This document shows, one piece after another, positions 45,020 through 47,707 of a stretch of DNA of 64,000 bases. The translations under genes were made by a program, and so were the position numbers. The notes under the pieces are model-generated. The model was not told the origin of the DNA, did no database searches, and was given only the letters and a program-made list of their open reading frames with translations. Each line of letters opens with the position of its first letter. The stretch's first letter is position 1. The stretch is from Gammaproteobacteria bacterium (lineage in GTDB: Bacteria; Pseudomonadota; Gammaproteobacteria; Pseudomonadales; Pseudohongiellaceae): positions 1 to 64,000 of the forward strand of contig VMDC01000001.1 of the NCBI GenBank assembly GCA_008081045.1, in the 5' to 3' direction.

Positions 45020-45901
45020 ATGAATAGATTCTCAGTAACGCTCTTATTGTCAGGCCTCACGGTCATGGCCGGCACGTTATTCTGGGTGTTCGCCCCTCCG
45101 CCTGCTGCAGTTAACGCCACGATCCCGAGCGGCGGCGAGGCACTGGCGCGTGGGGAATATCTGTTCAGCGCCGGCGGCTGTATCAGCTGTCACAAAGGTG
45201 AGGAGCGTGCTGAAAGCCCCAGCGGGGGTCTTGCGTTGCGCACAGATTTCGGGGTTTTTTATGCTCCGAATATTACGCCCGATCCGGTCAGCGGCACCGG
45301 TAGCTGGTCCGGCGCCGACTTTATCAATGCGATCAAGCACGGCCGGGCACCGGACGGCAGTTATTATTTCCCTGTATTCCCCTATCGCTCCTACGCCGGA
45401 TTGAGTGATGAAGATGTGCTGGATATGGCGGCTTACATCCTATCGCTGGATGCAGTTGATTTCCGGGCACCAGAGCCTGAAGCGGCGCCATGGTTGCGTC
45501 GCTGGATGATTGCCGGTTGGAACAGGCTTGCTGATCTGTCGCAGCCGGACAATGAGGTATTTTCTGATGAAACTGTGGCTCGTGGCGCCTATCTTGCAAG
45601 AAATCTCGGGCATTGCGGAGAATGTCATACCCCCAGAAACGACCTTGGTCTACCGGACTGGAGTCGCGAGTTCGGCGGCAGTCAGCTGGGTGATGAGATT
45701 ATTGAGCCCATTGACTCAGACGCACTTGCGCACTGGACTGCTGCCAATTTTGACCTGTTTCTCATTCTGGGTATGAAGCCTGAAGGTGAATTTGTCGGTG
45801 GTGACATGAACGAAGTGATTGAGTTCAACACCAGCAGACTGACCGACGAAGACCGTGGGGCACTGGCTGCATTTTTCACGCGCCACCAGCGCCCTGACTG
45901 A
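45020..45901 (+). CDS. Secreted diheme cytochrome c
   Basis: Signal/TM; two CxxCH motifs (CISCH, CGECH): GEYLFSAGGCISCHKGEE, GAYLARNLGHCGECHTPRN. Confidence 0.93.
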   Translation: MNRFSVTLLLSGLTVMAGTLFWVFAPPPAAVNATIPSGGEALARGEYLFSAGGCISCHKGEERAESPSGGLALRTDFGVFYAPNITPDPVSGTGSWSGADFINAIKHGRAPDGSYYFPVFPYRSYAGLSDEDVLDMAAYILSLDAVDFRAPEPEAAPWLRRWMIAGWNRLADLSQPDNEVFSDETVARGAYLARNLGHCGECHTPRNDLGLPDWSREFGGSQLGDEIIEPIDSDALAHWTAANFDLFLILGMKPEGEFVGGDMNEVIEFNTSRLTDEDRGALAAFFTRHQRPD

Positions 45902-46209
45902 CAGCGGCGGCTTGCCGGGTTAACCCGGATTTCTCATTATCTGATTTCGCCTGTCAGGCCGGCGGATGTCGCCAGCGCTGTCGGCGGCGCGGTACCCCAG
46001 CATTGTCTGCTCTCCTGCACAGCCGGAGCGTATCAGTTTCGTGCGCGGGCCAGCTTCACGCGCTGCGTCATCTCATGAAAGCTGCGATGTGCCAGTGCTT
46101 CGCTAAAATCTGACCGGAGTGAACCCGTTGTGTCCGGTTTTGCCAAAAATTGTTAGCTTTCGTGAAAATTTGTCTACACTGAAGGCGTCGCACCGGTAGT
46201 GTCAGGGCG

Positions 46210-46225
46210 TTGACCCCTGGGTCAA
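46210..46225. promoter_or_regulatory. Candidate operator: 7-2-7 inverted repeat
   Basis: TTGACCC-CT-GGGTCAA, 111 bp before the start of the double-glycine peptide gene. Confidence 0.5.
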
Positions 46226-46335
46226 CAGTCCGAGGGTTATTCCGGCAGGTGAAGTCAATCAGCTTTGCCGGGGTGTCCGGGGCTGCCGGTGCTGCTGAAA
46301 TCAGAAGCAGAGTGATTCACACAAGGAGATGGTAG

Positions 46336-46599
46336 ATGAGGGAACTCACACTCGAAGAAATGGAACAGGTGGCCGGTGGGCTGGGTCCGGCCGGTGCCGT
46401 GATTGGCGGTGTCGCCGGCGGGTTAAGCTCATACGTCGGCAGTGTCGGTGGCATCATCGGCGGTGCAACGCTAGGAGCAGTCGGAGGATTCTTCGGCGGT
46501 ATTGCCTCGGCAACAACAGGGTTGGGCCGGGCCATGTTCGGAGGCTACGCAGTCGGGGCAAGCGTTCTGGGCTCGGCAACCGGAGAGCCCAGCTCGTAA
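46336..46599 (+). CDS. Bacteriocin-like precursor with double-glycine leader and glycine-rich hydrophobic core
   Basis: MRELTLEEMEQVAGG leader then LGPAGAVIGGVAGGLSSYVGSVGGIIGGATLGAVGGFFGGIASATTGLGRAMFGGYAVGASVLGSATGEPSS; RBS AAGGAG at 46323-46328. Confidence 0.82.
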   Translation: MRELTLEEMEQVAGGLGPAGAVIGGVAGGLSSYVGSVGGIIGGATLGAVGGFFGGIASATTGLGRAMFGGYAVGASVLGSATGEPSS

Positions 46600-46610
46600 C
46601 AGGGGGTATT

Positions 46611-46916
46611 ATGGAGACGGTTTACTTGAACGCCGTGGTGATTTCTTTGTTCGCAACCTGGTTCATCCCGGCTACGATTCGAGACCCCCACAGCGGAGAG
46701 TTTCTGGGGTTTGCTCATGGAAAGTTCCTGGGCTTACTGGCCGCATTAACCCTCGTGGAAAGCTTCGTGGTCTCGCAGAGCTTCGGGTTCGGGCTTGAGG
46801 CGCTGCTGAGAGTGATCGCACAGGTCCTGATCGCTGTGTTTGCCGGGCTGATTTTTGTGAAATATACCCATCCCCGACTGTTCGGTTCGAGCATCAACTT
46901 TACCAAATGGTGGTAA
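46611..46916 (+). CDS. Small (101 aa) membrane protein, candidate immunity/partner protein of the double-glycine peptide
   Basis: ATG 12 bp after preceding stop; about three hydrophobic segments: VVISLFATWFIPATI, FLGLLAALTLVESFVVSQ, VIAQVLIAVFAGLIFVKYT. Confidence 0.65.
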   Translation: METVYLNAVVISLFATWFIPATIRDPHSGEFLGFAHGKFLGLLAALTLVESFVVSQSFGFGLEALLRVIAQVLIAVFAGLIFVKYTHPRLFGSSINFTKWW

Positions 46917-47062
46917 TCGCTCGGGCCGTTCGGGGCAGTCAGGCGGGTTGCAGAAGTTGTAGGTCTGCGCCTCCCGAGCAGGGCTAAAGACGGGGCTTGA
47001 GTCAACACACGACAGCGGGGCAGCTGCCTGCCCCGCTATTGTGCGCCTACCTGATGGAATAC

Positions 47063-47545
47063 TCAGTCGTTGTCGACCCGGTAGGTATCATGACAATTGC
47101 CGCAGGAGCCGCCCAGCGCACGGAAGGCGCCCATCGCGGTTGCAAACTCCCCGGTTGAAGCCGCTTCGGCAAACGCAATCGCATTGTCTTCCAGTGCCTG
47201 AGCCTTATCGCTGAGGTCACTCATGTTGTCCCAGATACTGTCGAGCGCGGTGGTCTCTACCGCGAACCCCCGTGTGTCTTCTGCCATTACTTCCGGAATC
47301 ATGCTGGCGATCGCGGCTATTCTCCGAGCGTTACGCTCGGCGACTTCCGCATTAAAAGGCGCGCCCTGAGCCATACCGGCGATAGGGATCAAGTTAAAAC
47401 GGAGTGTCTTAAACAGGGCCTTGCGTTGATCAACAGCTTGCGCTGCGCGTTGCTCGGGAGTGATGTTGTCTTGCGCAGACACGACCATCAGCAATCCGGA
47501 AACAGTCACGCAAAACGCGGACACCAGAATCAGTATTTTTCTCAT
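47063..47545 (-). CDS. Cytochrome c' (c-556 type)
   Basis: Signal peptide MRKILILVSAFCVTVSGLLMVVSAQD; C-terminal CGNCHDTYR haem motif, four-helix pattern. Confidence 0.92.
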   Translation of the reverse strand: MRKILILVSAFCVTVSGLLMVVSAQDNITPEQRAAQAVDQRKALFKTLRFNLIPIAGMAQGAPFNAEVAERNARRIAAIASMIPEVMAEDTRGFAVETTALDSIWDNMSDLSDKAQALEDNAIAFAEAASTGEFATAMGAFRALGGSCGNCHDTYRVDND

Positions 47546-47707
47546 TATTGAACCTCCACCTAGGTGAGTTTGCAGGCCAGACGGATCGATATAGCAGCTT
47601 GGAACCTGCGGGATTGGCTGATTACCCCCGAATGCCACGGGAACCCGTTCAGCGTGGGCTGACTATATTACAAAGCGTGAGGGCATGCCATTGGCGAGGG
47701 TGTTCGC

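Follow-up and report, generated by a model that had tools for sequence, protein, structure and literature searches.

The window, the whole stretch of 64,000 nucleotides that was analysed, contains a pair of adjacent small genes on the forward strand. The first is an intact open reading frame (ORF) of 87 aa (46336-46599, +), preceded by the Shine-Dalgarno sequence AAGGAG (46323 to 46328, +) 7 nt before the ATG; GGAG is found at the same spacing in the homologous precursor genes. Its translation starts with a 15-aa double-glycine (GG) leader, MRELTLEEMEQVAGG (46336 to 46380, +), whose pattern is conserved in the host family. The leader is followed by a 72-aa core, which with the stop codon spans 46381 to 46599 (+) and could be aligned with its homologues. 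Class II microcins have leaders of 15-18 aa that end in GG or GA, and this leader agrees with them; the core, estimated at roughly 6-7 kDa, falls in their range of ~5-10 kDa. Gly, Ala, and Ser make up 58% of the core, which carries two charged residues and ends in SS. The core contains 12 GxxxG steps, compared with 6.7 +/- 1.8 in shuffled sequences of the same composition (p=0.005). An earlier reading of this DNA, made without database searches (the sequence-only reading), had described the ORF, its good ribosome-binding site, the leader, the core length, and the richness in GxxxG steps, all of which were borne out. The AF2 model of the precursor contains helices at residues 17-31, 37-59, and 63-82, with modest confidence (pLDDT 68). 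We saw no ORF for a second GG peptide upstream of the pair, as found in G326 and G334.

The second gene, also intact, encodes a hydrophobic membrane partner and putative immunity protein of 101 aa (46611 to 46916, +), as judged from alignments and the AF2 model. The sequence-only reading had the right protein directly downstream and was off by one on the spacing: the gap between the precursor stop and the partner ORF is 11 bp, not 12. It had also suggested a check for membrane helices, and the AF2 model of the partner does contain three long helices (residues 3-23, 37-58, and 62-91) with good confidence (pLDDT 85). The motif IPATIRDPHSGEFLGF follows the first helix. The partner had no Pfam match and matched no known immunity protein, and a PDB fold search with its model gave no match at E < 2. 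Used as a single-sequence query against the genome contigs, it found no relative, and an order-level search found one weak relative; homology became clear only once the precursors had been collected.

Searches of Pfam, NCBIfam, and PHROGs returned no match above cut-off for either protein. The nearest model was TIGR03949 (lactobin A/cerein 7B), on which the window precursor scored 17 bits (E 0.0039), below the curated cut-off of 21.5 bits, and the precursor had no match to PF10439 (Bacteriocin_IIc) in Pfam. It is similar to the peptides of both models in having a GG leader and a Gly-rich core, but differs in these scores. Among seven homologues, four scored on TIGR03949 and two on PF10439 (best 4.3e-6), and the Pfam MccV model was matched weakly by three relatives (best E 0.026).

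We scanned genomes of the host family (Pseudohongiella/OM182-type) with the leader pattern MREL-x7-[IVM]xGG, using the reversed pattern as a control. The pattern had 107 matches in 67 of 137 genomes and the control had 0, so the conservation of the leader in homologues, which the sequence-only reading had named as a check, was found. Outside the host family, a class-level leader scan yielded only ~8 plausible GG peptides. From the family loci we read 103 distinct precursors. A hydrophobic ORF of 70-200 aa was located at most 200 bp downstream at 65 of 105 precursor loci, and several families are represented among these ORFs. The partner family of the window was found downstream of GG precursors at 27 loci, which, with the leader matches, puts the pair far beyond chance, and its 27 members share the motif [IL]P..[IVW].[RW]D..[TS]G.Y.G[FY] just past the first helix. 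Some loci carry tandem copies: L216 (in G395) has three precursor-partner pairs at the cytochrome c' site, and L222 (in G326) has two partners. A literature search for Pseudohongiella with bacteriocins found no earlier description. This repertoire of microcin-like toxin/immunity pairs is large and apparently undescribed, in an abundant uncultured marine group.

We then considered how such peptides could be exported. In two relatives, G341 (L070) and G345 (L282), an HlyD adaptor, a C39-ABC exporter, a GG peptide of the window type, and its partner are encoded in one run. Across genomes at least 90% complete, 43 had both GG peptides and a strong C39 match, 12 had GG peptides only, 19 had C39 only, and 19 had neither; this co-occurrence gave a Fisher p of 0.007, and of 0.001 within genus, with kinship ignored. 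Five congeners (L275-L279) have the exporter between gcvP and pepQ, as part of a fixed cassette. The cassette also holds two conserved genes whose products have no Pfam match, a ~322-aa membrane protein (FYPFYDPYR...; L275:3148-4116 and homologues in L276-L279) and a ~225-aa protein (L275:4386-5063 and homologues in L276-L279), the latter with a weak Y1-transposase likeness (PF01797, sub-threshold, in one homologue). Many family genomes, including G302, G300, G329, and G185, additionally encode ~320-aa non-ABC proteins with weak matches to PF03412.

The C39-ABC exporter and HlyD-type adaptor that serve class II microcins are present in G341 and G345 and absent here. The sequence-only reading had seen no C39 exporter in the window, and indeed none is near the pair. 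It had also proposed that the peptide is exported by a C39 peptidase-containing ABC transporter (PCAT) encoded elsewhere, and had asked for a C39 exporter to be sought anywhere in the genome, naming the lack of one as a refuting outcome. This proposal was not supported: a PF03412 (C39) profile search of the window genome (G000, 96% complete) gave no match, near the pair or elsewhere, and PF00664 detected only two ABC proteins, an MsbA-like one and one of 644 aa, neither with a C39 domain. The C39-less 644-aa ABC exporter (L064; G000:C1:87428-88240) is encoded beside a LysE-type gene, ~41 kb from the pair. On a 200-kb contig of the window genome, gcvP directly neighbours pepQ, with 1.3 kb and no cassette between them; nothing convincing was found when the 1.3-kb gap was searched for cassette remnants. 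The gcvP-pepQ site is likewise without the cassette in two sisters, G409 and G358. An assembly gap was considered as the cause of the missing exporter and rejected, as gcvP and pepQ are contiguous on the 200-kb contig.

Scars of the cassette were found in further genomes. In G356 (L295), part of the LpxL-like gene of the cassette and the end of the membrane-protein gene are fused into one ORF, and G357 (L338) has similar pieces. In G398 (L337) the C39-ABC gene is gone, the adaptor is truncated, and the LpxL-like gene remains; this genome has kept an intact pair (L223) despite that loss. The empty sites, together with the scars in G356, G357, and G398, therefore indicate that the exporter was deleted more than once. 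The scars in these three genomes appear to be independent deletions, and all three still carry GG peptides.

The pair itself is located between two cytochrome genes. A cytochrome c gene (45020 to 45901, +; PF00034) lies upstream, in the same order as in sisters in which the site is empty (L178-L180), and a cytochrome c' gene (47063 to 47602, -; PF01322) lies downstream, serving as a syntenic anchor outside the system. Public relatives of this cytochrome c' come from Pseudohongiella sp., an OM182 bacterium, or unclassified Gammaproteobacteria, which places the host in that group as a marine member. The alignment of the window with L178, L179, and L180 showed that a segment (45941 to 46831) is absent from sister G409, whose cytochrome c' is 97% identical to that of the window and whose flanks differ by 8-10%. 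The segment has a CTGAT repeat at each end (window 45941-45945 and 46827-46831), one of which is left in G409. G409 has no pair, and the 3' end of the partner gene remains in decayed form, interrupted by a premature TAG and missing 2 bp. This stub implies that the common ancestor had the pair and that the window carries the survivor. No trace of the pair was seen at the syntenic site of G358 and G405 in the alignment. The cytochrome c' locus (window 45900-47060, L185, L189, L191, L192, L196, L198, and L216) is a genus-wide hotspot of differing GG peptides and pairs.

Our reading, to which we give a probability of about 0.72, is that the pair consists of a class II microcin-like precursor and a membrane immunity protein, that the exporter has been deleted, and that the precursor is now an orphan while the partner may still be protective. 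We read the two genes as a class II microcin-like toxin and its immunity protein because of the leader repertoire, the recurrent partner, and the linkage to HlyD and C39-ABC genes in relatives. The bacteriocin and immunity pair of the sequence-only reading is supported by its conserved precursor and partner, with an exporter beside them in relatives; the placing of the exporter elsewhere in this genome is not supported. The window locus is an orphan within a new microcin-like repertoire, and the pair is probably either kept for immunity or decaying.

The mechanism in relatives most likely resembles, by analogy, that of class II microcins (PMC9746304, PMC10233263) and of the Cdz system (PMC5380434). 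The C39-ABC exporter with its HlyD adaptor would cut the precursor after GG and then release the Gly-zipper peptide or display it on the surface. Related cells would be attacked through insertion of the peptide into their inner membrane, and the three-helix partner, residing in the membrane of the producer, would guard the producer. In the window genome, from whose conserved site the exporter cassette has been deleted, the precursor is probably not secreted, and the partner may still protect the cell against relatives that have the exporter. We infer the toxicity, the insertion into membranes, the immunity function, and why the pair has been retained. Against retention for immunity alone, the precursor is no less intact than the partner, although retention of that kind would not call for an intact precursor. 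If the reading is right, the lineage has been caught after exporter loss and before pair loss, so that comparative genomics could test the idea of 'keep the antidote, drop the weapon'.

The pair can be placed among known systems only in part. Like class II microcins (MccV/class IIa; PMC9746304, PMC10233263), it combines a 15-aa GG leader starting MR.L and a ~70-aa Gly-rich core with an adjacent small immunity-type gene, and relatives of the window have a C39-ABC and HlyD-type exporter. Unlike them, it lies in a genome without the exporter and in a marine host outside Enterobacterales, and its core and partner have no measurable homology to any validated microcin. In Caulobacter crescentus contact-dependent killing (Cdz), the three-TM protein CdzI provides immunity to the Gly-zipper peptides CdzC/D (PMC5380434). 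By description, that system resembles the pair in its Gly-zipper precursors of 84-86 aa, its type I exporter, and its three-TM immunity protein. However, Cdz is a two-peptide toxin with the exporter CdzAB in the same cluster, whereas in the window each partner goes with a single peptide and no exporter is encoded. The window locus therefore does not show the combination of two peptides, CdzAB, and CdzI that defines Cdz.

We weighed other explanations of the same observations. The pair could be a recent pseudo-system, with both genes free of selection and decay merely not begun. This is unlikely, in our estimate, even though the exporter is gone and the pair has been deleted in G409, G358, and G405, with the decayed stub in G409: neither ORF has acquired a stop or frameshift over the 8-10% divergence of the flanks from G409, and a second lineage, G398, keeps its pair intact after C39-ABC loss, both of which are suggestive evidence against it.

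The GG peptide could also be no toxin at all, acting instead as a signal or as a surface or membrane structural peptide, with the partner as its chaperone or receptor. GG leaders are also found on pheromones and other peptides, and the cytochrome c' hotspot also holds GG peptides that are not Gly-zippers (NPLTVTFGTP type). However, the cores are very diverse, the small membrane proteins that follow each of them are just as diverse, and whole pairs are duplicated in tandem, so toxin-immunity diversification fits better than a signal or structural role. The partners also diverge faster than the precursors, with identities between the window and its homologues of 31-43% and 59-64%, respectively (for the precursor, dN is ~0.3 and dS is saturated). 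We consider a role other than toxin improbable.

Similarly improbable, finally, is a working secreted microcin whose exporter lies in the unassembled 4% or is replaced by a C39-less ABC exporter and a separate peptidase. In its favour, both ORFs, the ribosome-binding site, and the leader are intact, 12 of the 55 genomes that are at least 90% complete and have GG peptides show no strong C39, so that GG peptides often persist without it, the C39-less 644-aa ABC protein at C1:87428 is available, and an exporter may be placed elsewhere in a genome that is 96% complete. Against it, the conserved site on the 200-kb contig holds no exporter, just as in G409 and G358, neither of the two ABC proteins has C39, and the scars show that exporter deletion recurs.

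The precursors of the family have a further feature in common. Among distinct precursors, the last residue is Ser in 76 of 103, compared with 7% (26 of 373) of the long ORFs at the same loci, and Ser-ending precursors are in the majority in 13 of 19 unrelated core clusters. The feature is confined to the end, with Ser at 74% in the last position and only 12% at position -2, and there is no Ser-rich tail. By contrast, of the plausible GG peptides outside the family, counted from translations, 0 of 8 end in Ser. Class IIb microcins bear a siderophore on a C-terminal Ser (PMC10233263), which makes modification of the C-terminal Ser an obvious idea here, and the GG peptides of the family may carry such a modification.

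A candidate enzyme is encoded at the exporter. An LpxL-like gene of the acyltransferase family (PF03279) precedes the exporters of two genera, one of them that of the window, and some exporters of a third, in the order LPLAT - HlyD - C39-ABC. It is the gene immediately before HlyD and C39-ABC in L275-L279, L281-L283, L304, L306, L308-L310, L315, L317, L319-L321, L325-L327, L329, L332, and L335. PF03279 was above cut-off in 7 of the 8 clusters first seen, and in the eighth (G397) the gene was identified by its similarity. We scored the presence of the gene by profile search over all 137 family genomes. Precursors ended in Ser in 63 of 78 cases with the LpxL-like gene and in 2 of 11 with C39 and without the gene (Fisher p 8e-5, kinship ignored). 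The Ser-ending exceptions are G341, where the contig ends just before the adaptor and the LpxL-like gene may be cut off, and G368, whose exporter is a different one, only 27% similar. In genomes with neither the LpxL-like gene nor C39, a group that takes in the window genome and others with deleted cassettes, 13 of 16 precursors ended in Ser.

These patterns raise the tentative possibility that the final Ser of the family peptides is modified, perhaps acylated, by the exporter-linked LpxL-like enzyme, and that the window pair is a relic that has kept SS without the enzyme. The usual catalytic motif of LpxL enzymes is HX4(D/E). Against the proposal, this motif is not kept, since 12 of 12 aligned LpxL-like enzymes are without the acid at +5 and have H[FM]G[DNE][FY] instead, and kinship accounts for part of the association between Ser and the LpxL-like gene. 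A literature search for acyltransferases together with C39 and bacteriocin found no earlier description. The family resembles the class IIb siderophore microcins (PMC10233263) in its conserved C-terminal Ser and in the modification-type gene near the exporter of relatives, but it has no Gly/Ser-rich tail, the linked gene is LpxL-like (PF03279) rather than a siderophore-transfer set, and nothing of that gene is left in the window genome. If true, a Ser-modified class would be a lipid-type analogue of the siderophore microcins, and terminal Ser modification would be a new way of arming Gram-negative bacteriocins. The NPLTVTFGTP-type GG peptides, which have a Pro-rich core (L132, L144, L147, L150, L152, L155, L174, and L175), mostly have no terminal Ser and often adjoin cytochrome c'.
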